Part shown: piece after piece, positions 2,046 to 40,972 of the stretch
Layout of the letters: the number at the start of each line of letters is the position of its first letter
How positions within the stretch are numbered: the first letter of the stretch is position 1
Source of the DNA: Thermogemmata fonticola
Lineage (GTDB): Bacteria > Planctomycetota > Planctomycetia > Gemmatales > Gemmataceae
Direction: 5' to 3'
DNA: 64,000 nucleotides
Assembly (NCBI RefSeq): GCF_013694095.1
Contig: NZ_JACEFB010000001.1
Location: 744,001 to 808,000, forward strand
Position numbers and translations under genes: made by a program
Notes under the pieces: model-generated
The model's input: only the letters and a program-made list of their open reading frames with translations
The model's database searches: none
Told to the model about the DNA's origin: nothing

Positions 2046-2104
2046 AACATCTCCTAATTGATATAATAAAACTAATAACTAACTTAATAATTTATTCAAT
2101 TCTT

Positions 2105-4730: not shown

Positions 4731-6214
4731 GCAGCTTTTATCCTTTCAATCAATGATGTTGTTGAATATCCGCGATGAAATTGCGCGATATATACCTTAC
4801 CTCCGTAACTTTCGACAAAATCTGCGCCGACGATCTGATCCTTGCGATAATCTCCACCTTTGACAAGGACATCAGGACGCAACGCTTGGATCAGCGCGAG
4901 GGGAGTCGGTTCATCGAACAGCACGACGTAATCGACATCTTGCAATGCTGCGAGGATTGTAGCACGTTCTGTGTGAGGATTAACAGGTCGAGTTGGTCCT
5001 TTTAAACTTCGTACACTCGTATCACTGTTTAGTCCTACAATTAAGCAATCAGCTTGCTGTCGAGCTTCTGATAAATAACGAACATGACCAGCATGTAAAA
5101 CGTCAAAGCATCCATTGGTAAAAGCAATACGTTGTCCCAAGGATCGCCGCATTTGTAATAAGGGAAGGAGGCGCGGTAGTGTTACGATCTTGTCCGTAGA
5201 TTGGAAAATAGTGTTACTTGTCGGCGTGTGTAAGATGTCAGCGAGGATATCCGCCCGCGTGACCGGAGATACTCCAATACGTTCCACTTCCAGGCCACCG
5301 GCGATATTGGCGAGACGAGCGGCAGTTTCGTAGTCGGCTTTGGCTGCCAAGGCTAAGGCAAGCGCTGCCATCACCATGTCACCGGCACCGGTGATGTCAT
5401 AGACATGGCGGGGACGTGTGGGAAAATGCTGTCGTCGCCCATCGCGGTGGGCTAAAGCCATGCCATCCTTGTCCAAAGTGACGATACCTGCTTCCAATTC
5501 CAATCGATGCTGCAATTCAGCAGCAGCCTCGAGGGCATCTTCGACCGTGTGGAGAGTACGTCCTACTGCCAATCCAGCTTCCAAGCGATTGGGGGTCAGA
5601 GCCGTACAACCACGGTATTTGGAATAATCTCCCCCGCGGATAGGATCTGCAAGCAAGGGAATGGCCCGCTTTTTAGTAGTAGATATCAGAAATTGTAATA
5701 ATGTGGGTGTACATACACCTTTATCATAGTCGCTAACTAATATAATATCTGCAGAATCTATTAGAGATAGCGCTCTTTGTATAATCACATATTCGATATT
5801 CTGACTAATAGTATGGCGCTCTTCATAATCAACACGTATCATTTGTTGGGGATGGCGTGTTTGTGCTCGGCCGATGTACCGTTCTTTCACGGTGGTGGGG
5901 CGTGATGAGTCCGGGACCACCGTGGATGTGTCGATTCCGAGTTGACGCATCATTGTCAAAACGCGCTCGGCGTTTTCATCGTGGCCGACAACCCCAACAA
6001 CAGCAACGTTGCACTCCAGATGTCGGAGCATCATTGCGACACTGCCTGCCCCTCCTAACCTTTCCTCGCGGTGATCGGCACGCAGTAAGATCACGGGGGC
6101 TTCTTGGCTGATCCGCTCCGCATTGCCCCAAATGTAGCGGTCGAGCATGATATCACCCACCACCACAACCTGGGGTTGTTTTGCACTCTGTAATAATTGA
6201 ATAATATCATTCAT
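4727..6214 (-). CDS. hldE: Bifunctional heptose-7-phosphate kinase / heptose-1-phosphate adenylyltransferase
   Basis: Makes ADP-heptose for the LPS core. The 495 residues fit the fused HldE form. Residues 1-330 are a PfkB/ribokinase domain with GDIMLDRYIWG near the N-terminus, a substrate-binding GGAGSVA (54-60) and the catalytic GAGD (276-279). Residues 340-495 are a cytidylyltransferase-like domain with FTNGCFDVLHAGHV, whose HAGH (374-377) is the nucleotide-binding HxGH. Codon use is slightly AT-richer around 5700-5850. The other steps of the pathway (GmhA isomerase, GmhB phosphatase, HldD epimerase) are not in the window. Confidence 0.95.
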   Translation of the reverse strand: MNDIIQLLQSAKQPQVVVVGDIMLDRYIWGNAERISQEAPVILLRADHREERLGGAGSVAMMLRHLECNVAVVGVVGHDENAERVLTMMRQLGIDTSTVVPDSSRPTTVKERYIGRAQTRHPQQMIRVDYEERHTISQNIEYVIIQRALSLIDSADIILVSDYDKGVCTPTLLQFLISTTKKRAIPLLADPIRGGDYSKYRGCTALTPNRLEAGLAVGRTLHTVEDALEAAAELQHRLELEAGIVTLDKDGMALAHRDGRRQHFPTRPRHVYDITGAGDMVMAALALALAAKADYETAARLANIAGGLEVERIGVSPVTRADILADILHTPTSNTIFQSTDKIVTLPRLLPLLQMRRSLGQRIAFTNGCFDVLHAGHVRYLSEARQQADCLIVGLNSDTSVRSLKGPTRPVNPHTERATILAALQDVDYVVLFDEPTPLALIQALRPDVLVKGGDYRKDQIVGADFVESYGGKVYIAQFHRGYSTTSLIERIKAA

Positions 6215-23929: not shown

Positions 23930-26521
23930 TCACGGGTCCAAGATTTCATCAATCAGCCGAAATACCGCCACCTGACGCCGATTAGGATTATTTGGGTCCA
24001 CGGTCATGGCACCGATGTAAATTGTGCGCCGGCTTCCTTGAGGCAACAATTCTTGCACAATGGTGGGTCCCCCTAGGACTCCCGAAGTTTCCTGGCCATC
24101 CCATAGAAACCCTGGCAAGGGTTTTTGCCAGATGACCTGCCCGGTCTGCGGATGAAGGCAGACGGCCAATCCCTCTCGGCTGACTGCATACACCGCCAGG
24201 GGAAGGCCGCCCAGCTTGGCCACTGCGGGCTGACTGGTCACAGACCCTCCAATACTTACTCGCCACTTCTGCTCACCGCTGTGCCGATCGATAGCATAGA
24301 TCGAGCCATCCCGGCACGCAGCGTAGACATGGAAAGCGTCTCCAGCCAAGGCCGTATGAACCCCTCGTGGCAATTCCGTGCGCCAAACCTCAGCACCACT
24401 GGCAGCATCCAGACAGACCACCGCTCCACTTGGCTTTTCTTCCCGACGTTGGCCTTTCTCCTCCGGGTACTCGTGAGTATCGGCTCCCAGATTCCCCGTC
24501 CCCACCCCGTAGTACACTCGCTGATCCAAAACCAACGGCGCGGCGAAGGAGCGGAGCTTCAGATCGGTGCGCCAGAGTTGTTTTCCTGTGGCCACATCGA
24601 GGCAAATCGCCGCCGTGGAGTACAATCCGCTCCCCAGGTATAGCCGGCCGCCCGAAACAGCGGGAGCACCATCAACATGCAAGCCGTTTTCCAATCCGCC
24701 CGCGACGTGCCAACGAACGCGGCCATCCACAGCAGTGACGGCGTAAACTCCGTCATCGCCCGCTGGGAAAATAACCATGTCCTGGCTTACCACCGGCGTA
24801 CCCTCCGTGTGACTGGTGGTGCGGAAAGGTTGCGCCCACCGGGGTTGACCCGTGAGCGCATCCAAAGCAAAGAGGCGGCAGCCGCTATGCTCATGCAGCC
24901 CTTCCCCGCAATACACCACACCGTTAGCCACCACGGGAGTGCAGTATACCGGCAAAAGGGGTTTGTCCTCTCCGTCGTAACTCCAAAGCACTTTTCCATC
25001 TGCACTATCCATGCAAACAATACGTCCCCCACCGCTCAGCCCTGCTTCCATGATCCCGAAGTAGAGCCGTCCCTGATCGACCACCACTCGGCTTAGCACT
25101 TGCCCGCGTAGAGCCAGCCGTTGATCACCGTCCTGTTCGTAGGCTTCTAAGGCCTCGGCCTGAATGAAACGTGGGCCTACCACCGTTGTGCCACCGCCAC
25201 TTTCTGTCACAACCGTCCATTGGCCCGGAACCGAGGATGATTGCCAGACCAACGCCACGAGCAGGCAGGCCGCCAGAGTTCCCATGGCCACGGACTCCCC
25301 CGATAAGCTGAGCCTCCGCTCTGTCCCTAAGCCACTGTTGCCCTCCCACCACGCAGTTCCTCGCCGGTAGAGGGCGTAAAGCAACGCCGCAACGACGGCA
25401 AGCCCAATGCAGGTGAATTCCCGCATCGGGGGTGTCACTGCTGTGCGTAAATCAGCCCACCCCATCGTCAGCGCGACACATATTCCCGCGAAAACGCTCA
25501 CACCAACAAGACTTAGCACTTCAGCGCGCGATGGCGGCGCCGTGACCGAAGGATCGGCATTGGCCAATCGGCGATAGCGAATACCCGCCCAGATTAAGCC
25601 CAGTAGGGTGATCCCCAACAAATACACTGTCAACGCCTGCAAGCCCCACCACCATCCCTGCGGCAGATAGTTTTGCAAGAAATAATGGACTAGAGCCAAG
25701 GTGCTATTGAGACTAGCCACGGTCAAAAAGGCACGCCAGCGCTTCCAAGCAATAGCCAGGCGAGCGAATACCCCCGGGAAAACCGCGGCGATGATTGCCA
25801 ACGGGCCGACCAACACAAACGAGGGAATAACACCCCATAGTGTCTTTCCCCGACTGTAGTGGCGGGACATCTTCGGTTTCGGCGAATTACCATCAGCCGG
25901 TGACTGAGGCGGCTTATCCTCCGATGCAGGAGGCCCATAGCCAGGTTTTGCTTTCTCATCCGGCTTAGGGGGGACGGCACGCCGCGCCAACCCGTCCTCG
26001 ATGATACGGATCAATTCGGCACTACTGCCGGCAAAAGTTCGGCGGAGATAAGGCTCCCCGTGCAGAAAAGCCCAGCGAACCGTTTTGCCGGATTCGTCTT
26101 CAAACCCCTGGAGTGAAAACCAGCTTCCCTCCACAAACGCCATGGCCTGATACCGCTTGCCGCGCTTGCTAGCGAAAAACACTACCTGCCGGCGAGCATC
26201 CAAACGGTCCAAGATCGTTTGCGTATCGTTGGCTTTCTTCGCTTCCTCATCCCCGCTCATATTTACTGCCAACTGTTGGAAGGGCGGCTCGCCCTTCAGG
26301 AGCCGTACCACTTGAAACACTACCGCAGGTTTACCAGCATCCACACGAGTCACCTTGGCGACAAAGATGTAGCGTTCCGTCTCCAGAACTTCCGCGAGCG
26401 GAGTCAGGCGCGTGATGACGGCTTGAACCTTCCCAGCCACAAGGAACCCTAACCCCCCGACCAGGAGGACCAAGGCCGCCATGACTCGACTAGCCCGACC
26501 CGATGGATGCTCAATGCTCAT
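23930..26521 (-). CDS. Multi-pass membrane protein with PQQ-like beta-propeller
   Basis: An 863-residue protein. An N-terminal signal or anchor helix lies at about 13-33. Residues 35-185 form a small extracytoplasmic domain with no recognised family. Several membrane helices follow between about 235 and 430 (for example IPSFVLVGPLAIIAAVFPGV). The C-terminal 400 residues carry repeated PQQ/WD-like blades (GKVLWSYDG, GQPRWAQPF, GRVRWHVAGG, GKQLWRTD, AEVWRTELP, GEQKWRVSIGG, GQVIWQKPL), giving a seven- or eight-bladed propeller. No quinoprotein dehydrogenase residues are evident, so the propeller is probably a binding or scaffold domain. It lies downstream of the giant-protein operon on the same strand, separated by 374 bp. 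Confidence 0.88.
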   Translation of the reverse strand: MSIEHPSGRASRVMAALVLLVGGLGFLVAGKVQAVITRLTPLAEVLETERYIFVAKVTRVDAGKPAVVFQVVRLLKGEPPFQQLAVNMSGDEEAKKANDTQTILDRLDARRQVVFFASKRGKRYQAMAFVEGSWFSLQGFEDESGKTVRWAFLHGEPYLRRTFAGSSAELIRIIEDGLARRAVPPKPDEKAKPGYGPPASEDKPPQSPADGNSPKPKMSRHYSRGKTLWGVIPSFVLVGPLAIIAAVFPGVFARLAIAWKRWRAFLTVASLNSTLALVHYFLQNYLPQGWWWGLQALTVYLLGITLLGLIWAGIRYRRLANADPSVTAPPSRAEVLSLVGVSVFAGICVALTMGWADLRTAVTPPMREFTCIGLAVVAALLYALYRRGTAWWEGNSGLGTERRLSLSGESVAMGTLAACLLVALVWQSSSVPGQWTVVTESGGGTTVVGPRFIQAEALEAYEQDGDQRLALRGQVLSRVVVDQGRLYFGIMEAGLSGGGRIVCMDSADGKVLWSYDGEDKPLLPVYCTPVVANGVVYCGEGLHEHSGCRLFALDALTGQPRWAQPFRTTSHTEGTPVVSQDMVIFPAGDDGVYAVTAVDGRVRWHVAGGLENGLHVDGAPAVSGGRLYLGSGLYSTAAICLDVATGKQLWRTDLKLRSFAAPLVLDQRVYYGVGTGNLGADTHEYPEEKGQRREEKPSGAVVCLDAASGAEVWRTELPRGVHTALAGDAFHVYAACRDGSIYAIDRHSGEQKWRVSIGGSVTSQPAVAKLGGLPLAVYAVSREGLAVCLHPQTGQVIWQKPLPGFLWDGQETSGVLGGPTIVQELLPQGSRRTIYIGAMTVDPNNPNRRQVAVFRLIDEILDP

Positions 26522-26895
26522 GACCGGAATCCCTTACCTTAGCTCGACAGCGTCCAATCCGAAAACTGCCGTTGAAGAACATTCAGGCAGCAAGTGGGAG
26601 CGCGGATTCTCAGGGAGTGGGACTGCGATCCGCTCACATAAGGCAGGTCATTCATCCCGACAATCAACTTTATCTTACAAATCGCGGCAGCCTACCGCCA
26701 CGCTACCCTCTTCACGCCCCATAATCCCACACCACTAACTTCTGCGGCCGGCTCTCGTTTCCCGGCTTGTTCCGTGAACTCTACCCCGACTGGTTTCCTC
26801 GTCTGTCATGGACATCGATAAGCAACAGCAACGCCGCCGACGCGTTGGCTTCCCTACCGCGGCTCGTTACGACTCAGCGTCGCGGTAATACCCCT
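26522..26895. other. Intergenic region before the PQQ-propeller gene
   Basis: A 374-bp gap between the end of the 1193-residue gene and the start of the PQQ-propeller gene. It presumably carries the latter's promoter. I see no gene and no strong hairpin in it. Confidence 0.4.
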
Positions 26896-29800
26896 TCATG
26901 GATCCAAGGAGACCTTGCGTTCCTTTTCGGCATGCAGATAGTGCTGTAAATCCTGAACCACTCGCTGACGGAAGCGCATGTCCTGGGCGCCGAGCCATCG
27001 CTGGACCTGGGGAGTCAGCCGATACCCATCGCCAAGAACACCTCGCACCACGATATCCACGAGACGAAGAGGTTGCAGAGTCCAGAAGCGATTGGTGGAA
27101 CCGTGCACAGGCAAGGGTCGCAAGCGCTGGAAGAGTTCCTCATACCGTCCGAGGCGGCGGGTGGATAGGAACGCCAGAGCCGTCGCATAGCTATAGGCAG
27201 CCTGCATATACTCCCGCGCCCTCAATTCTGAGTCATCATTTGCCGGCAAAAATAGATAGTCCCTCGCGGCATCGAGAAGAGGATCGCTCCTGTCTGTCTC
27301 CTCCAATGCTGCCCACACCGTGGCCGTGGCTAAGCGGTGTTCCCAAGTGGAGGAAGTCTCCGGCGGTTGGAAATGCTCGCACCTTTCGGCCAACTCTTCC
27401 AGTTCCCTTTGTAAACGGAATCGCCGGAACACATCGGCCAACAGAAAAATGACACTGCCCATTACGGGAACCACATCCAGCAGATAAGGTTGCGCTTGCC
27501 GCCACAGTTCCGCTAGGAAAGGCCCCGCCATGCCTTCCGGCCAGCGTACCATAGCTCGTGCCAGATTCTCTATCATCCGACATTGCACTTCATCCCGGCG
27601 TAGATAGGTCAGGCGAACGATCCGGCTTTCGCCGGCATCCGGCCAAGCAGCGGGCAAAGTTTCCCAGGCCTTTGGCACCAGTCTCAGCATCCGTTCTAAA
27701 ATGGCGGCGGGAAATAGTGCTGCCAATTCGCAGAGCGCAATGAGGATGCGGCAAGTTCGCAGGCTATCGCTGGACTGCTCGCACATGCGCAACAGTTCTT
27801 CTGCCTCAGATGTCACTCCCCCGGCGTTCGTTCGCTCTAGGAGCACAGCCAAGCGTTCCCCTATCGGATCATCACCACGCAAGGGAGCCAGCTCCCAAGA
27901 GCGCAGCGGTCGTGAGAGCCGGAAGGGGTCCAGGATGCGGGAATGCTCGCAGAGTCGATCCACCGCGTAGCGCGCGATGGGGGAAAGGCTTTGCCGCTGT
28001 GCCCACCAATCCGCCGGCAAGAGGGGCTGAGGCGGCCCTCCCTCCCAGACTTCTTGCATACGCCAACGGAAAGCAGCAGCCACGCATTGCAAAGCCGCCA
28101 CCATCTCATTGTCCAGTCCCTCACAACTTCCCCGTGTGTTGGTAACCCATACCTCGGCACGACGCCGTTCCCCCACCGCCGCCAGCCCCCACGCCCACAT
28201 CTGGTATGCGATCTGGCCGGTTGCTGCCGTCTCGCCATCCAGTCCCTCCACACGTAGCGGACCTGCCGGATGCCGCATTACCCAGTCCAGCATCTGGTAC
28301 CTTTGGCGGATCAGCCATGTACACGCGGTGTTCAGGTATTCGGGATCATGGTTCCCCACAAAACGCAAAAACGAGGGAACATCGACGTCTAAAGCGTGAC
28401 CCTGTTGAGTCAGGCGCTGCATCAACTGATCCAACCACCGCGCTAGAAGGAGGATATCCCCTTCACATAACTGAGAAGCTGCACATGCGGCCAACCAAAC
28501 GGCACGCATAGGCATCTCTCCCGCATGCCTTTCCACGAGTCGAATCAGACAGGGCAACAGACGGCGCACATCTTCCCCCGTCTTTCCCTCCACAGCCAAG
28601 CGTACCAGAAAAGCCGCCGCTAACCTGCCTGATGAGGTATCCTCCGGTCTTACCTGCCAGAATGTCGGATGGAACACAGCCTCCACAGAAGCACGAGCCA
28701 TACGCAGCTCTACGAGCCACCATGACTCGCACCACCGCAGGAGGTTACCAGTCCGGCCTTCCCACACTGCCATCAGCCAGCACAATGCTGCATCCTGAAG
28801 GTGGCCGGAGGATTGCTGCCACCGAGCTAGTTCCGCCCAGCCTTCTGCCAGGCGCATCGTCGATCCCGCTTCCTCGGCGGTCAGCAACCATTGGCACAAC
28901 TCTAACCGCCGCAACGTCCCCCCTGCCCGCCAGCTCGCCACGTCGGACGCTCGCGCCTCCTGACGTGGTATCGGGGCAGGAGCAACTCCCCTTCCCTCCT
29001 GAGAGGCAGATTCGCTTCCGGGGTTAGCAGAGGACGCCCATTGATCACCCGCATCTTGGACACGACGTCGCCGTTTCTTCCAGCTTGCTTTCAAAAGCTC
29101 CCGCAAATATCGTCCAATCTGGGCCCACATTCGCCGCCAGAATGTCAAGCCTCCTGGCGCTGACTGAGCGGGCAAAGGCGCCCATCGGTGAGTTGAAGGT
29201 AACAAGCGAGGCAGTGGTAGAAGAGAAGTTGCTTCCTTCCTCTCAGGTGACACCTTGGAGTCAGAGTTAGTAACGGTCCACGTAGGTGTCTCTTCATTCT
29301 CTTCCTCATGGATCACTCTCATATGGATGGAGGGGGGAACAACATACTCCACCCATGAAGAAATCGGCTGAAAGTCCCCAACTGGCACTTGGTGGCAGCG
29401 GGAGGTCCCATCAGAGCACCTTTCCACCCAAGTCATGGCATTGTCGCAAACCCCCGCTCGCCGCCTCCGTTCAGCCACTCCGAGCACCGGCCGCCACTGC
29501 CAACCCACGGGCCAAAAAAGCAACGGGATTTCTGGATCGGCGACGTAGGCCTCCGTACCTTCCGGCAACCGTGTAACGACGCCCATTGTTCCCGAGTTAT
29601 CCCAAATCAGCCATCCATGAGCATGGCCTCTTTGAACGCAAGCCACCTTGATTTGACTCAACGTTCCCTGATCCATGTGCTGACACTGCTGCCAGAATTG
29701 TGTCACCACATCTGCCGGGATATACCACAACGTTGGATCATGCCTCTCGTCCTTTGTTTCCGACCAACGCAAGCGTAAGGGAACGACATGATGGAAGCTC

Positions 29801-30477
29801 TGAACACGGGAAACAGCCTGAAGGATCGTCACCTCGCCTTTCAACTCCTGAGAAATGGTTGGCTCTAGAACAGGGAGTGGCGCTACAATTTCCAGATGGC
29901 GAACTTTTCGGGAGGAGTCAATGACACACAGGCCTTGCCGAGGAACTGGAATGTGATCGATCAAGGGATGCCGATATCCCCATTCCACCCACCGCTTCGG
30001 CGCTTGTTCGCGGTAGGCGCGTAACCCCGTCCTGCATTGCCACAATTCGAGAAGATGAGGAGATACCGGAGAAAGCAACCCCCACACGAGCCGCGAAATG
30101 GAATCAACGTGGATAATCTGCAAGTAGCTTTCCAAGAAAAAGCGGCTTCGGGCCAACTCCGCCATCCTTGCTGCCGGAATGCAGATAAGGACCGTCTGAG
30201 TACCACATGCTTCGTGGCATCGTTCCAAAGGGAGAATTGCCGCCCAACATAGACTCCGGGAAAACCGCAGGGGTGGTATCTCCTTTTGCCATGACACCCC
30301 AAAAGAGGCTAAGTCTTCCAACACCTTATGGGAAGGCAGTACAGGGAACAGCAACCACACCCGGCCTTCCTGATCCACAGCCCACTCCACGGCCCGCTTG
30401 GACCATTCGGGAGGGACAAGGCCGCGGTCTACGGCGAACTGCACGATTCCAAGGTGCGGAAAACAGAGAATTCCCAT
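26896..30477 (-). CDS. Giant ternary-system protein, paralogue A (bpX6-like?)
   Basis: A 1193-residue soluble protein with no signal or membrane segment. Residues 1-400 are a mixed alpha/beta region that matches paralogue B block by block: the N-terminal start (FPHLGIVQFAVDRGLVPPEW), YREQAPKRWVEWGYRHP (155-171), a PLRLRW...DPTLWYIPAD block and a GDFQPISSWVEYVV block near 375. A basic, low-complexity linker (about 430-530) precedes a C-terminal alpha-helical superhelix of about 650 residues with TPR- or HEAT-like spacing. The overall form recalls the bpX6-type domain proteins described computationally in MoxR/FtsH ternary systems; that name is from memory and low confidence. It is the last gene of the FtsH-like locus, with no clear ribosome site before ATG 30477. 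Function unknown, possibly target recognition or scaffold. Confidence 0.85.
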   Translation of the reverse strand: MGILCFPHLGIVQFAVDRGLVPPEWSKRAVEWAVDQEGRVWLLFPVLPSHKVLEDLASFGVSWQKEIPPLRFSRSLCWAAILPLERCHEACGTQTVLICIPAARMAELARSRFFLESYLQIIHVDSISRLVWGLLSPVSPHLLELWQCRTGLRAYREQAPKRWVEWGYRHPLIDHIPVPRQGLCVIDSSRKVRHLEIVAPLPVLEPTISQELKGEVTILQAVSRVQSFHHVVPLRLRWSETKDERHDPTLWYIPADVVTQFWQQCQHMDQGTLSQIKVACVQRGHAHGWLIWDNSGTMGVVTRLPEGTEAYVADPEIPLLFWPVGWQWRPVLGVAERRRRAGVCDNAMTWVERCSDGTSRCHQVPVGDFQPISSWVEYVVPPSIHMRVIHEEENEETPTWTVTNSDSKVSPERKEATSLLPLPRLLPSTHRWAPLPAQSAPGGLTFWRRMWAQIGRYLRELLKASWKKRRRRVQDAGDQWASSANPGSESASQEGRGVAPAPIPRQEARASDVASWRAGGTLRRLELCQWLLTAEEAGSTMRLAEGWAELARWQQSSGHLQDAALCWLMAVWEGRTGNLLRWCESWWLVELRMARASVEAVFHPTFWQVRPEDTSSGRLAAAFLVRLAVEGKTGEDVRRLLPCLIRLVERHAGEMPMRAVWLAACAASQLCEGDILLLARWLDQLMQRLTQQGHALDVDVPSFLRFVGNHDPEYLNTACTWLIRQRYQMLDWVMRHPAGPLRVEGLDGETAATGQIAYQMWAWGLAAVGERRRAEVWVTNTRGSCEGLDNEMVAALQCVAAAFRWRMQEVWEGGPPQPLLPADWWAQRQSLSPIARYAVDRLCEHSRILDPFRLSRPLRSWELAPLRGDDPIGERLAVLLERTNAGGVTSEAEELLRMCEQSSDSLRTCRILIALCELAALFPAAILERMLRLVPKAWETLPAAWPDAGESRIVRLTYLRRDEVQCRMIENLARAMVRWPEGMAGPFLAELWRQAQPYLLDVVPVMGSVIFLLADVFRRFRLQRELEELAERCEHFQPPETSSTWEHRLATATVWAALEETDRSDPLLDAARDYLFLPANDDSELRAREYMQAAYSYATALAFLSTRRLGRYEELFQRLRPLPVHGSTNRFWTLQPLRLVDIVVRGVLGDGYRLTPQVQRWLGAQDMRFRQRVVQDLQHYLHAEKERKVSLDP

Positions 30478-30704
30478 ACTGTCAGTCTAGCTCGAATTAT
30501 CCACCCCTGCCGATAGAATTGTTCATCTCACGCATCAGCTGAATTGGCGATCATCGATCTGAAAAATAGAGAAAACATAGGACTCTTGAAGGGAACATCC
30601 TAGGCCGCCTTCCAACAAGACTTCTCCCTTGTCACCGCAAACCGCCAAATAATGAGACAGTCAGCCAATCGCTGCCTACTGTAAGATGATTGCTGTTTTG
30701 CGCA

Positions 30705-33700
30705 TTATTGGGTCACACTGGTGCAGACCTCTTTGATATCATTAATGATTCGTCTCCGCAGAAGATATTCATTTTCAATTTGCCAATCAGTCATCAATTT
30801 ACCTCTATCATTTATCAATATCGAATTACCACCTAATATAACATCTAAAGCATATTTAATAGACTCTGTAATCTGTATGTAATCCAGAGATATGTATTCA
30901 TCCGAGCTAAAACTATCTGAAATGTGAATGTTCCCACGCGTACAATCCTTGAAGTAGCGATGTATATAACTTATTGCCAAATTGTCTCCTAGACAGCTTA
31001 TGCTCTTAATATAATTTACCACCACTCTCACATAACTATTTTTCTCGATATTACCTTGAATACCTGGTTTTAAATTCAGAATATATTTATGCAATCTTTC
31101 CAACTCTGTCTCACGCCGCTGCACATCTCCCGTCATGCATGCTACTGAAGCGCTGATGCGCACTCGTATTAGCGCTTCGGTGAGTCGAGGAGATTCTGGC
31201 TTCTCGTCATGCCAATAACTCCAAGGTCGTAACTCGTGACGAATATACATGATGACTTCCGAATTATGACAGATACGCTCCAAGTATAGGGCAACAGGTA
31301 CTAATTCGCTGAGTAACATGAGAGCCAATGGCACACCATCTTCATCACAGTGGCGTAGAATATCTACATGCTTACACAATACGTTTAACAGATCATCAAT
31401 CCACCTTTGCTGACCATACAATCCGACAAAGTGAAAGGCACGGGTATATATGCTTCCCAGTTCACTGACTTCTTGCCGATAATCCGTAGAGTTCTTGCTT
31501 ACAGAGAATTCGTTAAATAACTTCCCGAGTTTATCGATGAAATCTGACCACAACCACAATAAATCCGATGACTCCGCCGAATATATATGGGCGAGAGTTT
31601 GCCGAAGCGAATACAAATATCCCATCATACTTGAGTCATCATATGTTTCCCTCAAGTAAACTAAGATTGCGTCCTCTTGTATCAGCGGCTCGAGTAACTC
31701 CGATTTTTGCAGCAAGCGATTCACAACGTAATATGCCATGCGAGAGACAACCAATTCTGTTGGCAGTTGCTCACATTCTGATCTAAGTTCATCAATAATT
31801 TGACGTATGTCGGGAGGTAATTTCGATGTAGGTGGCAATTTACTAATTGCCTCATTGATGCGATGTTTATAAGATTTATCAATTATAGAAACATATAATT
31901 GTCCTATGTCATAACTAATCGCTTCTTTATTTGTAAATACTTGCCTCAACTCTTTTCCTGCCGTTTCTAACCATGTGTTACATTCAGAAGACATTCCAAG
32001 TCGAGCCGCAAGATACGCAAACAAATAGTAAGCATATGGGAGATATCTGCTCTCACCACCAGAAGATGATGAACTGATCCACTGAATTACATCATTGAGT
32101 AAATTATTTAATATCTCTTTGAATCCTTGTAGCGCTTGTTGATACTGCAAACTCCCACAAAGGAGGAACTGTGGCAAATCGCAGAGTGCAACCGACGGAT
32201 CATTATAGAGTCTCTTTAGCATATGATCCGCACACCGAGATAACAGGAGAGGATTATTAAGCTTTTGACTCAAAAGGCGATAAGCCAACCACTGTCCCCG
32301 TAACGGCATCAACTCCTGATTTTCCTCCAAAAATCGCTGAAACGCTTGTAAGAAATCTGCCGTAGAATGTTCCGGATACCGTAAAGTCCAATACATGAAG
32401 CTGGCGAGGAGACGCTGAACAACACGGCGGGTGAATAAGCGATTGTTGAGTACCTTCTTCCATTCTTTCACAGAAGGTATAGGCTGGCCTTGCCATTCGG
32501 ATTTAAACCATCCTTCGACAAGGGGAAACATATTTGCCGGTTCACAATGCCAGAGAGCATGGAGCCAACACAGAGTCGATTGGTCCAAACAAGAAGCTTG
32601 AATGTATGCCCGAGCCAACTCTGGCCACAGCCGAACACGCTCCGGATCGTCCAGTCGGCTTCCCGGCACCTGTAAAAAACGCTGTTCTAACTCCCTGAAC
32701 GATGTATTGTGCGGCAATGCCATATCAGCCGGTTGTTGCGCCTCGGTTTTTGGGGCTGTTGGCGTTTTGCTACTTTCCGGTGAAGATGATGATGTCTTTC
32801 TCTGGCTATCCCCGGTTGTCGGTTTATTCCCGACGTGTTGATCGTACGGACGAGCTTCTTCATCTGAGGAAGCAGAGGGTGAAGGAGAAGCGGAAGGGGA
32901 TCCTCCATCATCAGGTCCCGGCGTGACCCCTGCCTGCTGTATATCCGAGGGCCAATCAAATACGGTGGCATCCACCCATTCTTCCAGAGCGACACGGTGT
33001 TGGGTTATGATGTAATCGATCCATTCGCTAAGACGCCGGAATGCACCGAGCGACAATACACAGGGTTGAAATGCATGATTGTCTAAGGGGCGGAGCCAAA
33101 CAATTTGTTCAGCATCTGCCACAAGCAATCGCTGGAGGGTTTCACTGCGCAGAGGAGGGTGTAAGGCATAACCTCGCGGCAAATATATGTTCCGGACCAA
33201 AGGATGGGTTACATAGGGGTAAGCCATATCGAGGTCCAATATTGGTGGCGGCTGGGTATCTCCATGTGTCTCCGCATACAGAATAATCCATTTCACTTTT
33301 TCCTTGCCTGGCGTCTCAGCAACAGCGAAGCTCAAACGATTGAGGATATCTTCTTTCGCCCCGCGCAGCCACTTCTCAAAGTCGTGTTGATGCTGCGCCG
33401 GTATCAACCATAAGGAAGGTTCAACACGAGAGGGATCACTTGGGATAAGCCGTAACGGGATAGGGATTTTGGACACTTGATCTTGCGCTTGCCATAGGCA
33501 GCGTTCTAAGGGAATCAGGATATCCAAAGATTGATAGATATTTTGGAATGGAGCATCGTCATAGAATTCCCAATGGTGCGGTGCGCGGATGAACAGGCGG
33601 CGATTTTCTGGAACGGAAATGCGTTGCGCTAAGGGATACTTCCAACCAAATTCCACCCAACAACGAGGAGTTTGTTCATAGTATGCAAAAATGGATTTCC

Positions 33701-34190
33701 TTTGGGAAATGATGTCTGACTCTAAAGCTTTCAACAGTGTGTAATATGGCGGCTGATTGACATGAAGTAGAGCAATAAATTCATCGCTAAATACTTGACG
33801 ATAGCAGAGCAATGCCATGCGGTCATTTTCGAGACGTAGTATTTCCTCAACTACCACTCTCAGGTTTTCTTCGTCTTTGATCTCAAATATCACATTGCCG
33901 ATTCTCTCAGCTCCCTGTCCACCCGGATTTGTATTTTTATCCAATGGTATAGCCTGATACCAACAGTGGGCAGAAAATACCTGTCCCGTAGGGTGTCGAG
34001 AACTCCGGTATATCCCCAAAGTGTCGAGCAGCTCGACCGTCTCATTCGGCAAATCTTGGTCACACTCTAGAAACACATGGCCATCTTCCCCGTAGGAAAA
34101 ACGCGCGGGTCTTGTCATGATTTCCAGAGGCACTATACCGCCTTGTAATACTAGCTGCAGCACACTTATATGAGGAAAATCCAAGATCAT
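30705..34190 (-). CDS. Giant ternary-system protein, paralogue B (bpX6-like?)
   Basis: A 1161-residue soluble protein homologous to paralogue A: N-terminal FPHISVLQLVLQGGIVPLEI, YYEQTPRCWVEFGWKYP (170-186), a PLRLIP...EPSLWLIPAQ block, and LGAFRRLSEWIDYII. A Ser/Pro/Lys-rich linker at about 410-490 separates it from a C-terminal helical superhelix. The DNA for the C-terminal part (about 30705-32200) is markedly AT-rich compared with the rest and with paralogue A, suggesting different history or relaxed composition. A GAGGTG site lies 6 bp before ATG 34190. The gene follows the 84-residue peptide gene by 172 bp. Function unknown; the duplication suggests two recognition or scaffold subunits serving the same AAA+ protease. 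Confidence 0.85.
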   Translation of the reverse strand: MILDFPHISVLQLVLQGGIVPLEIMTRPARFSYGEDGHVFLECDQDLPNETVELLDTLGIYRSSRHPTGQVFSAHCWYQAIPLDKNTNPGGQGAERIGNVIFEIKDEENLRVVVEEILRLENDRMALLCYRQVFSDEFIALLHVNQPPYYTLLKALESDIISQRKSIFAYYEQTPRCWVEFGWKYPLAQRISVPENRRLFIRAPHHWEFYDDAPFQNIYQSLDILIPLERCLWQAQDQVSKIPIPLRLIPSDPSRVEPSLWLIPAQHQHDFEKWLRGAKEDILNRLSFAVAETPGKEKVKWIILYAETHGDTQPPPILDLDMAYPYVTHPLVRNIYLPRGYALHPPLRSETLQRLLVADAEQIVWLRPLDNHAFQPCVLSLGAFRRLSEWIDYIITQHRVALEEWVDATVFDWPSDIQQAGVTPGPDDGGSPSASPSPSASSDEEARPYDQHVGNKPTTGDSQRKTSSSSPESSKTPTAPKTEAQQPADMALPHNTSFRELEQRFLQVPGSRLDDPERVRLWPELARAYIQASCLDQSTLCWLHALWHCEPANMFPLVEGWFKSEWQGQPIPSVKEWKKVLNNRLFTRRVVQRLLASFMYWTLRYPEHSTADFLQAFQRFLEENQELMPLRGQWLAYRLLSQKLNNPLLLSRCADHMLKRLYNDPSVALCDLPQFLLCGSLQYQQALQGFKEILNNLLNDVIQWISSSSSGGESRYLPYAYYLFAYLAARLGMSSECNTWLETAGKELRQVFTNKEAISYDIGQLYVSIIDKSYKHRINEAISKLPPTSKLPPDIRQIIDELRSECEQLPTELVVSRMAYYVVNRLLQKSELLEPLIQEDAILVYLRETYDDSSMMGYLYSLRQTLAHIYSAESSDLLWLWSDFIDKLGKLFNEFSVSKNSTDYRQEVSELGSIYTRAFHFVGLYGQQRWIDDLLNVLCKHVDILRHCDEDGVPLALMLLSELVPVALYLERICHNSEVIMYIRHELRPWSYWHDEKPESPRLTEALIRVRISASVACMTGDVQRRETELERLHKYILNLKPGIQGNIEKNSYVRVVVNYIKSISCLGDNLAISYIHRYFKDCTRGNIHISDSFSSDEYISLDYIQITESIKYALDVILGGNSILINDRGKLMTDWQIENEYLLRRRIINDIKEVCTSVTQ

Positions 34191-34362: not shown

Positions 34363-34617
34363 CTAGTGCTTCTGAGCTATCGGTTGGCGTGGGAGTGGTT
34401 CTGGAACAGATGTCGGCGCAGATACCTGTTCACTCTCGCGGGTGATGATCAACTCTCCAAGGTCTGTGGGATCGCGCCCTAACAATTTCGCCACTTGCTC
34501 CCGATGCAAACGTTCGTGTTCCAGCGGCAAAGCGTCCGGATCGGAATGCAATTTGACGAGGATGTCGTGTTTGCCGGTTTGGGGATTGCGGCGGAGTTGG
34601 ATGATCAACTGAGCCAT
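34363..34617 (-). CDS. Small FtsH-system-associated peptide
   Basis: An 84-residue protein whose N-terminal half forms a likely beta-hairpin (MAQLIIQLRRNPQTGKHDILVKL), followed by an acidic and His-rich helix (DALPLEHERLHREQVAKLLG) and a Pro-rich tail. It begins 42 bp after the FtsH-like gene, on the same strand. Size, position and pattern fit the short associated peptide of predicted FtsH ternary systems, and are also reminiscent of the small DUF2997-type partners of other AAA+ genes; both comparisons are from memory. It may be an adaptor or ubiquitin-like substrate tag, which is inference. Confidence 0.78.
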   Translation of the reverse strand: MAQLIIQLRRNPQTGKHDILVKLHSDPDALPLEHERLHREQVAKLLGRDPTDLGELIITRESEQVSAPTSVPEPLPRQPIAQKH

Positions 34618-34659: not shown

Positions 34660-36876
34660 TTAGGGGGAGTAGGAAACCGAGATCTCCCGCATCTCTGGCA
34701 GAGGCTCACAGGACTCTGCCGCCAAATGAGGTTGGGCTTTCCCTTCTCCCGGATAGCGTTTCCGGAGTTCTTCGATAATTTGCCGCACACGTTCTCCTTC
34801 GATGGTTTTTTTCTCCAGCAATTCGGCCCGGATTGCCAACAATTCGTCTTTGTATTGCGTGAGAATGGCTGCCGCTCGCGCTTGCGCTTGAGCCAAGAGA
34901 TTGTTGATCTGGCGGTCAATGGCTTCGGCCATAGTACCGGAGAGAATGTTTCTGCGTCCTTGCTGATCCCGGAAGGTCCGTAGAGGTGCGGGTAATTCGC
35001 TCATTCCGCAGGCTTCGACCAGGGTGGTCGCGAGTTCGGTGGCGCGGGCCAGGTCTGAGCGGGGATCGCCGAAGCCGCTAGCACCGGTCGAGACATCGCC
35101 GAGGAGGAGCCGCTCCGCCTCAATGCCGCCGTAAAGGACGCACAGGATATCGAGCAATTCCGAGCGCATGTGTCCGATTTTGTGCTTGTCTTGTTTGTAT
35201 TGGGTGAAAAACGGCGCCCAAGGGACATCGCTTTGGATGGTTACCTTTTCGGGGGGCGGATGGTGAGGGCAGAAAATAGCCACCAGGAAGTGGCCGGCTT
35301 CATGGGTGGCGACGACGATGGCATCCTGTTCGCGGAGAGTCAGGCGATCTTCAAACTCCGTCAATCCGCGTTCGATGAGTTGGGGTGTCGTAGGTCCAGT
35401 GATGTTTTCCCTGAGACGCAGGCGCGCCACGGCCCGACACAGGGCGTTCAGGTGGTCCCCGCTGAAGGGGGTTCCTGTAGCCGTCATGTAATTTTCACCG
35501 GTTCTCCGCACCGCATAATCCAGGGCTTCCTCGGTCATCGCGAGTTGCATTTTGGAGTTATAAATAGCTAGGATCGCTCGCCGATCTTGTTCGTCGGGAT
35601 AGGGTATGTGCAGGTGATACTCGAAACGTCCGGGCCGAAGCAAAGCGGGGTCCAAGGACTCTACGAAGTTGGTCGTTCCCACGACGAAGACGAGTTCGTC
35701 TTTGTGAAAGCCGTCCATTTCCGTGAGGAGTTGATTGACCATCGAGTGTTCGACGCCGCTGCCCGTGTAGGTTCCGCGTGCTGTGGCGAATGAGTCGATC
35801 TCATCGAAGACGATGATCGCCGGGGCAGATTGGCGGGCCTGGCGGAAGATGCGGCGGAGGTTTTCCTCACTTTCCCCGACCCATTTGGACTTCAATTCGG
35901 GTCCAGAGACGATGATGATGGCAGCACCGATGCTGGCGGCGATCGCCTTTGCAAAGAAGGTTTTGCCCGTTCCTGGCGGTCCCCAAAAGATCATGCCGCG
36001 GGGGATCAGCTCTTCAAGGCGGGCGATTTCCGTGGGGTCGTGCGTCTGATCTCTCCGGGCAAGAATATCGAGGATCTCCGCTTTCAGGCGGCGTTTGACT
36101 CGTTCGTAGCCCCCGATATCACGGTCCAAATCGACGTCAGGGATTTCCATGCTCGGTCCGAGTGTGGCCTGCCGCAATTGTGCCAACACCGGTCGGGGAT
36201 CGGAAGGATAATCTTGGCCCTGCAAGGTGGAGAGAAGTTTCCGCAATCGTACCGCATTGACGCCCGATACGTACTTGTACAGCAGCCATTGGGAAAACTG
36301 GCGGCCGAATTTGCGGCTTTCTGCTTGGGTCACCAAATACCGTAAACGATCCCGCGGCACCCCCAATATGGTAATGTGCACGGGGAAGAGATTTTCGATC
36401 ACTTTCGGAATGGGAAAGGACGGGTCTTTGAATCCGAGCCAGACGATCTCTGGGTTTTCATAGAGCAAAGGGATCACTTCACGGGCATCGTTGGTAAGCC
36501 CTCCTTGGGTGGTGGTGAGCAAATCGAGGTGAGGCAAAACAATGACCCGGCGCTCGACGGCACCTCGGACCGCCTCGCGGAGTTGTTGGATCATCAGGGC
36601 GGTCAAGCTCGAGGGTTGCATCCCTCCGCTCTGTTCACCGCCGGCTCTTCCCGGTCGTCCATCCAAATACAAGCAGGGCAATCGGACCTGACGGAGGCGA
36701 TCGCGTAGGCACATGAAGAGATAGGGCGTGACCTCCTTGTCGCATTCAATGAGAACCGGGAGGCCACGCTTGAGTCGATCCTCGGCTTGAGCTAGCTCGC
36801 GGACGTAAGCCGCTTCTACCGCCTGCTCGACGGTCAGTTGTTTGGGTAATTCGCTTTCCGGGATAAAGGTGCTCAT
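34660..36876 (-). CDS. Soluble FtsH-like AAA+ zinc protease with degenerate N-terminal AAA domain
   Basis: Numbering is for the longer frame from GTG 36918 (752 residues). ATG 36876 (residue 15) is listed; neither start has a strong ribosome site. Residues 40-230 look like an inactive AAA-type domain (LPVLIECDKEV, RRVIVLPHLDLL, LFPVHITILGVPRDRL) without a Walker A. Residues 265-500 are an active AAA+ domain: Walker A GPPGTGKT (313-320), Walker B IIVFDEID (368-375) and arginine fingers in LDPALLRPGRFE. Residues 525-720 are an M41 peptidase with HEAGH (539-543) and a third zinc ligand expected at Asp618 or Asp622 in TGASGFGDPRSD. No membrane helix is present, unlike housekeeping FtsH. It is the central enzyme of the locus and presumably unfolds and degrades targets delivered by the neighbouring proteins. 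Confidence 0.92.
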   Translation of the reverse strand: MSTFIPESELPKQLTVEQAVEAAYVRELAQAEDRLKRGLPVLIECDKEVTPYLFMCLRDRLRQVRLPCLYLDGRPGRAGGEQSGGMQPSSLTALMIQQLREAVRGAVERRVIVLPHLDLLTTTQGGLTNDAREVIPLLYENPEIVWLGFKDPSFPIPKVIENLFPVHITILGVPRDRLRYLVTQAESRKFGRQFSQWLLYKYVSGVNAVRLRKLLSTLQGQDYPSDPRPVLAQLRQATLGPSMEIPDVDLDRDIGGYERVKRRLKAEILDILARRDQTHDPTEIARLEELIPRGMIFWGPPGTGKTFFAKAIAASIGAAIIIVSGPELKSKWVGESEENLRRIFRQARQSAPAIIVFDEIDSFATARGTYTGSGVEHSMVNQLLTEMDGFHKDELVFVVGTTNFVESLDPALLRPGRFEYHLHIPYPDEQDRRAILAIYNSKMQLAMTEEALDYAVRRTGENYMTATGTPFSGDHLNALCRAVARLRLRENITGPTTPQLIERGLTEFEDRLTLREQDAIVVATHEAGHFLVAIFCPHHPPPEKVTIQSDVPWAPFFTQYKQDKHKIGHMRSELLDILCVLYGGIEAERLLLGDVSTGASGFGDPRSDLARATELATTLVEACGMSELPAPLRTFRDQQGRRNILSGTMAEAIDRQINNLLAQAQARAAAILTQYKDELLAIRAELLEKKTIEGERVRQIIEELRKRYPGEGKAQPHLAAESCEPLPEMREISVSYSP

Positions 36877-36987
36877 AATCCGTACTGGAATATCCTCTTC
36901 TGTTTTCCTCAAGTACACTCACGTTAGGGTTCCGCTTTCCGCCTCCCGCGAGAGAGAATCAAGTGATGCAATCTGCTAAGCGCAAAT

Positions 36988-37554
36988 TCACACTTCCAGT
37001 TTAATCGTCAACTCGCCCGTAGTCGTATCTTCGTGGATTTCGCGAATCTCGCCCATTTGACGGGCTTTGATTTTGATCGCCTCCCGCATCACTTGATTGA
37101 CAACAGCGTCCAATTCGCTTTCGATTTTCTGCAGGATGCGTTCACATTCATCGGCGACGCTTCTCTGCAGGTCCTCTTGGGTTTCGGCGAATCGTTTCGC
37201 AAGCTGCTCTCGCAACAATTCCATTTCTGCCTTCCGCACTTTTTGGGGAGATGCATCCGCATACACAGGCACATTCTTCTCTTGAGTGTGTGTAACCTCC
37301 TGCTCCTCTTGCACCGTCACGGTGACTGTTCCGTCAGAGGGGTCGACTGTGATCACCCCTTGACCTTGCCGGCGTCGCATGGTTCCATCAGGCTGTTCAA
37401 CGAAGCCGCGTTGCTGGAGAGCTTGCCGCAGCAGTCGGGCCATCTCGACGGCAGGTAGCACTTCCAAAAGTTCCAAGCGCGTGCTGATGCCATCTCGGGC
37501 TTCAAGGACCCGTGTTTCGGATTGCCGCAGTCTGAGACGATAAGCCAAACTCAT
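36988..37554 (-). CDS. Coiled-coil accessory protein of the FtsH-like locus
   Basis: A 188-residue soluble protein. Residues 1-85 are a beta-rich domain with the segment VITVDPSDGTVTVTVQEEQEV, and residues 105-165 form a long coiled coil (VRKAEMELLREQLAKRFAE onwards). The C-terminus returns to a beta hairpin (TTGELTIKLEV). A GGGAG site lies 9 bp before ATG 37554. The gene precedes the FtsH-like gene by 111 bp. The two beta segments at the ends resemble the DUF1257- and DUF2997-like pairs found beside other AAA+ genes, but I cannot verify this. Probably an oligomeric adaptor of the protease. Confidence 0.8.
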   Translation of the reverse strand: MSLAYRLRLRQSETRVLEARDGISTRLELLEVLPAVEMARLLRQALQQRGFVEQPDGTMRRRQGQGVITVDPSDGTVTVTVQEEQEVTHTQEKNVPVYADASPQKVRKAEMELLREQLAKRFAETQEDLQRSVADECERILQKIESELDAVVNQVMREAIKIKARQMGEIREIHEDTTTGELTIKLEV

Positions 37555-37748: not shown

Positions 37749-38954
37749 TCACTCGCACTCGCTAGTCCGGTCCGATTCGGCTAGCGGGGTCGAGCAAGTT
37801 AGGTTGGCTCTGGATACATGCACACGCCCGACCAGTTCATCTCCCCGATGTTCTTCCCATTGCCGCAACCACCATTGTGCTATGCGGTAGTCTTCATCCC
37901 AATATCCAATATTACGGTAGTGTAGCGTCCAGCGGTGAAGGATATTGATCAAAGTGAGTGGAGCTATCAAGGCCTGTCGGGCTTTCATACGTTCCTGTAC
38001 AGTACGTAATCTACCGATTTGTTCATCTATCTTTACGTTGTTTTGCCGCCTGTCCTGAAGTTGGGTAAAAGCGGGAGTCAGCCTCGCCACGGCTCGCAAC
38101 AGAAACAAGGCGAGATCGGGGCGACCGGCTTGCTCCGCATCGAGCAGGAATTGGCGATAGATCAAGTAGGTGGCTACGTTCCGTTGTACCAACTCTTCCA
38201 CGTCTTCTGTGTTTAGAGGAAAGTCCTTCACGAGACGCTGAAAAAGGTGGTTCTGCAATGCTTCGAGGAAAACAGAGCGTAATCCTTGAAAACAACGAGC
38301 AAATGATGGGCTGTCCACCAGATTCGCCTTAGCATACCAAGGCATGTCATCCAATTGGGATAGGGAATGCTTAGAGATTTCAGTCCTCAACATATGCGGC
38401 ATGGAAAGCCAGATCCATGGATTGGAATGAAAGGCCCGGAAGGAGCATAGCTTTTTAAACGACTCGGATCGGTGGCTGTGGGCAGTTTGGACACAATCGG
38501 CAATGCGCCAGACAACAAACTCGTCCGCGGGGGTTAGGGACTTGACATCGACGGGCGGTTCCCTCATGGCTTGCGCAATCTTCGGATCCGTCGAAGTCCA
38601 CCAAATGAGAAGACGGAGCGTATTGTGGGAGAAGTGAAGGGTCCGTTCAGCGAGAGGATGGCGTTCCCACAATCGACCGGACTTTTCTTGGCCGTGTTGG
38701 AGAAAGGATTCGTGCCAACCTTCGCTCGCTTTCACCAGAAACTCGACAGTGCCTTTGGCCAGGATTGTCTTGAGTAATCGGTCGGCGTTTGCGGACAACT
38801 CTTGCTGCGGCGAGGAATGATAATCCCAATTCTGTGTGTGGGGCGACGAGGCCTTACTGATTAGGAAAAGCTTTTTGGCATTGCACAGCAATTCATTCTC
38901 GAAGGGTGTGACCCCCACGCGCAGGTTTTTTCGTGGTACATCCATCATATTCAT
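37749..38954 (-). CDS. Unrecognised 401-residue protein of the FtsH-like locus
   Basis: I do not recognise a family. The protein is soluble, Trp- and His-rich in its first half (LWERHPLAERTLHFSHNTLRLLIWW), and mainly helical in the second (VEELVQRNVATYLIYRQFLLDAEQAGRPDLALFLLRAVARL). It lacks Cys clusters, P-loops or membrane helices. It starts 40 bp after the 4Fe-4S protein gene and ends 194 bp before the coiled-coil gene, all on the same strand, so it is probably a component of the same system. ATG 38954 is the first of three nearby Met codons. Confidence 0.75.
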   Translation of the reverse strand: MNMMDVPRKNLRVGVTPFENELLCNAKKLFLISKASSPHTQNWDYHSSPQQELSANADRLLKTILAKGTVEFLVKASEGWHESFLQHGQEKSGRLWERHPLAERTLHFSHNTLRLLIWWTSTDPKIAQAMREPPVDVKSLTPADEFVVWRIADCVQTAHSHRSESFKKLCSFRAFHSNPWIWLSMPHMLRTEISKHSLSQLDDMPWYAKANLVDSPSFARCFQGLRSVFLEALQNHLFQRLVKDFPLNTEDVEELVQRNVATYLIYRQFLLDAEQAGRPDLALFLLRAVARLTPAFTQLQDRRQNNVKIDEQIGRLRTVQERMKARQALIAPLTLINILHRWTLHYRNIGYWDEDYRIAQWWLRQWEEHRGDELVGRVHVSRANLTCSTPLAESDRTSECE

Positions 38955-38994: not shown

Positions 38995-39672
38995 CTAGTT
39001 GCGATTCTTTTGCCATCTTCGGATGATCCGCGTACTGGCGGCGGGATACCCATTGACGATAATTTCCCGGCCACGTACGCGAATTTCCAGGGTGTTCTTC
39101 TGGAACCAGCGTTCATCCCATGCGCAGCGCGAGGTCAAAAAATGGACCCGTTGGTTCGCGGAACCTATCCAGCGGCGCTGCGTCTCCGGCTGATCACGAT
39201 CATAGGGACCATCGACCAAAATATCGGTGTGGGCAAGCAAGTTGTGGATGGCTGGGTCTTGTTTTTCCCGCAATTGTTCCAAGGTAAAGCCGCTGAAGAG
39301 CAAGACCGTTAGCCCTCGTTCCCAAGCTCCTCGTGCAATTGCGGCTGCCGCGAGAGGTTGGGCCGTAGGTTCGCCCCCCAATAATGTAATTCCTTCCAAC
39401 TGGTGTTGCAGGCGGCTGCTGTCCAACAGTTCGAGGATTTCCGTCACGGTCATTGGTTTTCCACCAGCGAACGGCAAAAAATCCGGGTTACAACAACCGG
39501 GGCAACGCAGGGGGCATCCCTGAAACCAAACGGCAAACCGCCGCCCCGGTCCCTCCGCCTCCGTACAGGGTACAATCTGGGCAATCTGAGCTACAATCTC
39601 CGTAGAGGTCAATAAGGACTCGACCCGGCGTTCCGGCCTTTCCAACTGATGTAATTCCTTCGGCGGATCCAT
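38995..39672 (-). CDS. NrdG-like 4Fe-4S radical SAM protein
   Basis: A 225-residue protein of the activating-enzyme type. The iron-sulfur motif is FQGCPLRCPGC (Cys53, Cys57, Cys60), a CX3CX2C cluster for binding SAM. LLGGEPTAQPLAAAAIARGAWERGLTVLLFSGF is the conserved GGEP region. An N-terminal extension of about 30 residues precedes the core. No glycyl-radical enzyme or anaerobic ribonucleotide reductase is nearby, and the gene leads the FtsH-like operon (40 bp to the next gene, 47 bp after rtcA), so its substrate is more likely a protein of this system. Activity is inferred, substrate unknown. Confidence 0.87.
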   Translation of the reverse strand: MDPPKELHQLERPERRVESLLTSTEIVAQIAQIVPCTEAEGPGRRFAVWFQGCPLRCPGCCNPDFLPFAGGKPMTVTEILELLDSSRLQHQLEGITLLGGEPTAQPLAAAAIARGAWERGLTVLLFSGFTLEQLREKQDPAIHNLLAHTDILVDGPYDRDQPETQRRWIGSANQRVHFLTSRCAWDERWFQKNTLEIRVRGREIIVNGYPAASTRIIRRWQKNRN

Positions 39673-39719: not shown

Positions 39720-40754
39720 TTATAGCACGCTGCCTATGTGCACAATACCGGAAGTCCCTTCCTCACCCTGGAGATTTATGGAGATGGGCAAGAAAGTACG
39801 CACAACATGCGCATTGGTTACGAGATGCCGGGTGATCGTGGAGGTGCGAAAGGCGCTGGATTGCTGGCTGAAGGCGAGCGGAAGCAGTAATTGATCGGCG
39901 GAATGCGGATCCACTGGGGCTTGGGAATGAAGGAAGGCAAGGGCCTCTTCCGCCGCCTCGTCCGCGACGGCTTCCGCAGGTTTCCCTCGCTCGCCGAGGG
40001 CAAAGAAGAGGGTGGGCACGGGCGTCTGCCGGAAAACGACAGCGGCCATTGTACCGGGAGATAATGCTTGCCACTGTTCCACTTGCACCACTGTTTTCAG
40101 ACTTTCGGCATGCAACCGCTCTTTGAGCCGTTGAGCCTGACGTTCGGCAACGGAACGAGGCAGTCCAGCACAAGCACTCCAAACGGTGGCTGTGTCGAGA
40201 TGCGGACAATCCAGCAACTGCAGGGGAAGGACGGCGGGAGCCGGCTCCAAGAGGACGCGTATTTGGCCGCCGCCACGGGGATAGAAACCGGGACGCACCA
40301 ATTCCACAGCCACCTTCAATCCCATGCGTAGGAGATATGCCGACCAAGTGAGCTGCAAAAAATGCACGCAGGGTGCATTGGGAACGTGGGTCCCTCCAGT
40401 GATCACCACTTCACTGGGCTGGGTCGTTCGCAACAGCAAAGGTAAATAGATCGTTTGCAAGACCAGCGAGACCGCCCCTGCAGTGCGGATATCCCAGCGA
40501 TATTGACCCGCTTGGACCTGATGCGGTTCAAAATAAAGTGTAGTTGAACCAACCTCACCCCCTTTGAAACGCGCGCGCCCCACTTCGGCGGCGGCCTTGA
40601 CACAAGTCACATGCTGCGGTTGCAACCCCGGCCGACTTCGTCCTGAACGGATGTTGACCAATTTGAAAGGTTGGCCCGTCATCAACGCCAAGGTCAACGC
40701 TGAGCGGACAATTTGACCACCCCCTTCGCCAACCGAACCATCCAATTCTACCAT
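39720..40754 (-). CDS. rtcA: RNA 3'-terminal phosphate cyclase
   Basis: Converts RNA 3'-phosphate ends to 2',3'-cyclic phosphates using ATP through a covalent enzyme-AMP. The chosen ATG at 40754 (MVELDGSVGEGGG) has AGAGGT 8 bp upstream and gives 344 residues, the family length; the frame itself could start at 40877. Signatures are GEGGGQIVRSALTLAL, PGLQPQHV, ETTLY-like STTLYF, and SADQLLLPLAF near the C-terminus, just after a His corresponding to the adenylated residue. RtcB ligase is not in the window. Its close position upstream of the 4Fe-4S protein gene puts it possibly in the same transcript. Confidence 0.93.
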   Translation of the reverse strand: MVELDGSVGEGGGQIVRSALTLALMTGQPFKLVNIRSGRSRPGLQPQHVTCVKAAAEVGRARFKGGEVGSTTLYFEPHQVQAGQYRWDIRTAGAVSLVLQTIYLPLLLRTTQPSEVVITGGTHVPNAPCVHFLQLTWSAYLLRMGLKVAVELVRPGFYPRGGGQIRVLLEPAPAVLPLQLLDCPHLDTATVWSACAGLPRSVAERQAQRLKERLHAESLKTVVQVEQWQALSPGTMAAVVFRQTPVPTLFFALGERGKPAEAVADEAAEEALAFLHSQAPVDPHSADQLLLPLAFSQQSSAFRTSTITRHLVTNAHVVRTFLPISINLQGEEGTSGIVHIGSVL

Positions 40755-40972
40755 GTGTGTGACCTCTCGCGGCGCCACAGGATTTGACTTCGGACAGTCC
40801 CATTCTACCGCTTGGACCAATCTGAGAATGCAGCTCAACTGCCACCTAAGGTGTTCGTAATGAAGCCACGGTCCCACATCCGCCTCAGCTTGCGTCCCGT
40901 CCAGAAGCAGCAGATAGCAATGGCTCTAGTTGGGGGCGATACTTGTTCTCTCTCCTTTGCGGGCGGAGGTTT

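Follow-up and report, generated by a model that had tools for sequence, protein, structure and literature searches.

Adjacent fvmX7 paralogues of contrasting base composition in an FtsH ternary system operon of Thermogemmata fonticola

Why do two giant genes that stand side by side on the minus strand of the Thermogemmata fonticola genome, and whose products resemble each other in their N-terminal parts, differ so strongly in base composition? The genes lie in a 64,000-nucleotide stretch of DNA, hereafter the window, to which coordinates refer unless another locus is named. A preliminary description had attributed the AT-rich C-terminal half of one of them either to duplication followed by divergence of a recognition domain or to the replacement of one C terminus by transfer. 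The reading that we consider probable is that the genes are ancient tandem paralogues encoding fvmX7 subunits of an FtsH ternary system, one of which underwent an AT shift specific to its genus without a swap of its C terminus.

The two fvmX7 genes and their halves

The two open reading frames, both intact and with starts set mechanically, encode X7a (1161 aa; 30705..34190, minus strand) and X7b (1193 aa; 26896..30477, minus strand). Both match the Pfam family PF20005 (fvmX7, “FtsH ternary system domain X7”) above its gathering threshold of 24 bits, X7a with 197.9 bits over profile positions 3-420 of 421 and the divergent domain of X7b with 93.7 bits over positions 1-420. All the N-terminal landmarks quoted in the preliminary description were found in the two translations, in the same order.

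The AlphaFold2 models (mean pLDDT of 73 for X7a and 72 for X7b) predict one anatomy for both proteins, which would begin with an alpha/beta N domain (~380-395 residues), continue with a disordered linker, and end in helical hairpins spanning ~670 residues. With boundaries placed on the window protein, X7a would comprise the alpha/beta fvmX7 domain at aa 1-395 (33006..34190, minus strand; Pfam match at aa 2-395 and secondary structure), the linker at about aa 400-487 (minus strand), and, from DSSP of the model, a helical solenoid at aa 488-1160 (30708..32729, minus strand), which has its homologue in the C half of X7b. In X7b, the fvmX7 domain occupies aa 1-380 (29338..30477, minus strand) and the modeled solenoid aa 513-1193 (within 26896..30477, minus strand), preceded by a linker. 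The helical C terminus noted earlier for the two proteins is predicted in both models. Searches with the solenoids using Foldseek and VIA returned generic matches only (importins, HEAT, TPR, PPR; best match VIA Z of 10, Foldseek E >0.001), none of them decisive and none naming a partner.

Alignments were made for each paralogue and compared as profiles, with N and C halves kept separate. The N halves matched with an E value of 2.7e-72 over 381 columns, confirming the N-terminal similarity noted before, and the C halves with an E value of 5e-102 over 640 columns (hhalign), sharing conserved Trp, Arg, and Pro columns; crossed N-versus-C comparisons of X7a and X7b gave no match. The window proteins alone were also similar in BLASTP (2e-24 for the N halves and 2e-12 for the C halves). 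Judged by these profiles, X7a and X7b are full-length paralogues. The match between the C halves effectively rules out that one C terminus was replaced through transfer, an event that we regard as extremely improbable. Although GC is lowest in the C-terminal half of X7a (0.40, versus 0.59 in X7b), this half keeps the conserved columns of its homologue, the same C-terminal family is found in both species of the genus and in all relatives, and the AT shift spans the whole X7a gene and is common to the sister species.

Base composition, ancestry, and rates of change

X7a is indeed more AT-rich than X7b (GC of 0.446 versus 0.579; fourfold-site GC of 0.47 versus 0.59), but the earlier claim that this concerns the C-terminal half did not hold, the shift being gene-wide. 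Genes of at least 400 aa were sampled from the window plus twenty stretches of 20 kb in this genome; their mean fourfold GC was 0.71, and X7a had the lowest GC among the 135 sampled. In the sister species, it was the second lowest among about 90 sampled genes. Fourfold GC was 0.51 in the N half of X7a and 0.43 in its C half, a difference that was not significant here (p = 0.13); the corresponding difference for the sister species was modest (p = 0.012). Since the contrast is small, the extra AT seen in the C half when all positions are counted can be ascribed partly to amino-acid usage. Selection holding local composition along X7a was considered and rejected, the GC profiles of the two species not being significantly correlated (rho = 0.21, p = 0.29).

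Fourfold-site GC is higher in X7a than in X7b in 13 of the 14 other genomes carrying both paralogues, so that the AT shift of X7a is specific to Thermogemmata. When the two species of this genus are compared at conserved residues, only 24-37% of the fourfold sites agree in the operon genes and in a neighboring PQQ-repeat gene, which is near chance (the 50% of the fvmX3-analog comes from 22 sites only). With synonymous sites saturated and X7a AT-rich in both species, a recent transfer of X7a is unlikely. Because both species kept the AT richness despite this saturation, the composition of X7a calls for an old source that was itself very AT-rich or, alternatively, for a pressure acting lastingly on this gene.

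In an X7 tree rooted on myxobacterial X7, X7a and X7b form two clades across the Gemmataceae, some long branches being uncertain, which places the duplication at or near the base of this family and makes it ancient. Many relatives have a single X7, so that X7b is dispensable there; after the duplication, it appears to have been lost in many lineages.

The old source could have been an unsampled AT-rich relative, a homologue from which would have replaced the whole of X7a in the ancestor of the genus, both species keeping the foreign composition. We hold this to be unlikely. It would account for a very long genus stem of X7a (3.8 changes per column) combined with a strong AT shift confined to this genus, and it agrees with the opposite order of fourfold GC in the 13 genomes and with a tree under a simpler model, in which X7a was placed with the AT-rich genome G007. 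Under a mixture model, however, the X7a of the genus nests in the X7a clade of Gemmata and Fimbriiglobus, and constraining it with the Gemmata group, where FtsH and X7b fall, gave +3.5 lnL and a p-AU of 0.71, which does not reject the inheritance of X7a alongside the other operon genes. The saturation of fourfold sites would also demand a transfer before the species split from an extremely AT-rich source, and X6 and X5 are accelerated on the same stem without being equally AT-rich.

Rates were compared on matched genomes with one fixed topology, which assumes vertical inheritance of both paralogues. The C/N tree-length ratio was 1.65 (1.42-1.95) for X7a, 0.76 (0.69-0.94) for X7b, and 1.21 for single-copy X7 (ranges from 30 column bootstraps); the picture was the same when the own genus was excluded (1.54 for X7a and 0.76 for X7b). 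The tree of the X7b N domain was 2.2 times as long as that of the X7a N domain, and those of the solenoids were equal (ratio of 1.01). Duplication followed by divergence thus stands, as an ancient pair in two clades, but the fast-evolving domain is the N domain of X7b, the gene of normal GC, and not a C-terminal recognition domain. Fully reciprocal subfunctionalisation, to which pairwise identities pointed (X7a conserved in its N half and X7b in its C half), was discarded on account of the equal tree lengths of the C halves.

Pairwise dN/dS, obtained from close pairs that are not mutually independent, was about 0.09-0.14 for X7a, 0.22-0.28 for the N part of X7b, and 0.12-0.18 for its C part. 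Being well below 1 everywhere, these values speak against positive selection on a recognition half; they indicate that the X7b N domain is under weaker purifying selection, not under positive selection. Taken as a fraction of the remaining tree length, the genus stem measured 0.48 for X7a, 0.38 for X6, 0.26 for X5, 0.16 for X7b, and 0.12 for FtsH, the change in X7a being about four times that expected from FtsH. This points to a separate burst of change in X7a on the genus stem, and the AT shift would have accompanied this amino-acid burst rather than a swap of the C terminus.

The operon and the FtsH ternary systems

X7a and X7b are the last two genes of a minus-strand operon that, from upstream to downstream, starts with an RNA 3'-terminal phosphate cyclase (RTC; 39720..40877; PF01137, 243.2 bits) and continues with a radical SAM protein carrying a CPLRCPGC cluster motif (38995..39672; PF13353, 106 bits; PF04055, 34.1 bits), fvmX6 (37749..38954; PF20004, 146.2 bits), fvmX5 (36988..37554; PF20003, 174.3 bits), an FtsH-type AAA ATPase with an M41 peptidase (34660..36918; PF00004, 142.9 bits; PF01434, 105.8 bits), and an fvmX3-analog of 84 aa (34363..34617; PF20002, 85.5 bits), all on the minus strand. 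The fvmX3-analog, absent from the preliminary description, keeps its position between FtsH and X7a in relatives. It has a conserved LPxEHExxHR motif, and it is possibly the substrate or the partner of the radical SAM protein. Promoter-like sites were no more frequent than in shuffled sequence.

The same gene order was found in relatives and in 46 loci retrieved through fvmX5 from a GTDB collection, which come mostly from planctomycetes, the Gemmataceae among them, with three myxobacterial records in addition. The order RTC-rSAM-X6-X5-FtsH-X3a-X7a(-X7b)(-MoxR) recurs across many of the loci; in one (L140), an unbroken chain starts with the cyclase, includes X7a and X7b, and reaches MoxR, and X7, MoxR, and ivWA are contiguous in three others (G049, L127, and L131). 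Loci with a single-copy X7 (G049, L127, L131, L137, and L144) have the same family after the X3-analog, followed by MoxR; they differ in having one X7, with the intermediate rate ratio given above. The cyclase holds its position in most relatives with sufficient upstream sequence, and it leads the operon in most Gemmataceae loci (relatives L105-L150). The terms “phosphate cyclase” and “RtcA” do not occur in the main text of Kaur et al. 2020 (PMC7159879). That the cyclase comes first in the operon may point to an RNA-end step in the FtsH ternary system.

Downstream of X7b lies a gene for a PQQ-repeat protein (23930-30477 together with X7b), which is beside X7b only in Thermogemmata and is not part of the FtsH ternary system. 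In the sister species, X7b and this gene sit on another contig, off the operon (L033 5526-12162), so the adjacency of X7a and X7b is not obligatory. Very divergent stand-alone copies of X7 also occur off the operon, beside other long genes, in G008 and G010 (L038 8590-11967; L042 7874-10645). Elsewhere in the window, a second AT-rich stretch (1110-6214, minus strand) carries LPS-core-type genes: two Kdo/WaaP-type kinases, a heptosyltransferase, and a PfkB-cytidylyltransferase fusion.

FtsH ternary systems were described by Kaur et al. 2020 (PMC7159879) as subsystem 3 of the vWA-MoxR systems, and some of the loci analyzed here may already be in the source data of that work. The operon is such an FtsH ternary system, of the simpler type with a helical-N ivWA and a radical SAM protein. 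In the published systems, the FtsH component combines an inactive N-terminal AAA copy with an active second AAA domain. The active domain was found here, with an intact Walker A motif (GPPGTGKT at aa 313) and an intact HEAGH motif (aa 539) in the protein, whose N-terminal ~260 aa showed no recognised domain and no second AAA match in Pfam. A MoxR (G000:C21; bpMoxR, PF20030, 203 bits) and an ivWA with a helical N terminus (G000:C2; PF19997, 106 bits; PF19996, 47.7 bits) are also present. The locus thus shares with the published systems the FtsH-type AAA with M41, MoxR, the helical-N ivWA, the standalone radical SAM protein, and the fvmX3-analog, X5, X6, and X7 domains. Unlike them, it has two tandem X7 genes, MoxR and ivWA unlinked to the operon, and a cyclase at the operon head. 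The MoxR is of the bpMoxR type, as in the beta-propeller MoxR-vWA systems (subsystem 4), whereas the vWA identified in this genome belongs to the helical-N ivWA type.

FtsH, MoxR, and ivWA therefore lie on three contigs rather than in a single neighborhood, a layout that we read as the dispersal of a complete system, given a near-perfect co-occurrence. Among 59 genomes, ivWA was found in all the 27 with X7 and was missing in 31 of the 32 without it (p = 5.8e-16); in the exception, G026, the FtsH gene runs off the contig end. The MoxR subfamily and X5 co-occurred with X7 as well (p = 2.8e-13 for each), and in eight relatives a related MoxR copy sits beside X7. PADLOC gave no match for X7a or X7b, its matches being to the AAA domain of FtsH only, and no relative was found among viral contigs.

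Possible roles of the pair

The literature that we searched held no experiments on fvmX proteins, and as far as it shows, FtsH ternary systems are known from sequence alone. Their role in defense or conflict is a published proposal, as is the view that vWA-MoxR ternary systems form large complexes with controlled assembly (PMC7159879). From this view and the anatomy of the models, X7a and X7b would most plausibly, though tentatively, be paired scaffold or adaptor arms within a large complex. We infer the pairing of X7a with X7b, as well as a docking role of the N domain. The alpha/beta N domain would dock onto a shared core, and the flexible linker and long helical solenoid would grip a partner or substrate; remodeling of the complex would fall to the MoxR-vWA pair, and unfolding or degradation of the material handed over to the FtsH motor-protease. 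X7a would retain the docking constraint, and the N domain copy of X7b would be less constrained, in line with its weaker purifying selection.

It is comparably conceivable, and again short of an even chance, that the operon is a constitutive quality-control or assembly machine of the Gemmataceae rather than an antiviral one, with X7a and X7b as assembly adaptors and an endogenous substrate. Assembly chaperones are also known among MoxR-vWA pairs (RavA and midasin, cited in PMC7159879); inheritance looks vertical, with the order conserved family-wide, MoxR and vWA are dispersed yet co-retained, purifying selection was seen in every tested pair, and viral contigs held no relative. However, about half of the sampled relatives lack the block, as would suit an accessory system; FtsH evolves far more slowly than X7, X6, and X5; and multicellular bacteria are overrepresented among the carriers of this class (PMC7159879).

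A doubtful variant of the paired-arm reading would make X7a and X7b an obligate heteromer, in which only X7a keeps the docking N domain, leaving that of X7b free to follow a partner or invader as it changes. A co-evolutionary burst of X7a, X6, and X5 together in the genus, through the swap of a partner, would then have left a lasting AT bias specific to the gene.

At the level of the genes, X7a and X7b indicate that a strong compositional contrast can arise between adjacent paralogues when nothing points to a domain swap. At the level of the system, the gene order, the co-occurrence of the dispersed MoxR and vWA genes, the ancient X7 pair whose domains are constrained differently, and the cyclase at the operon head lead to testable predictions on membership in one complex.
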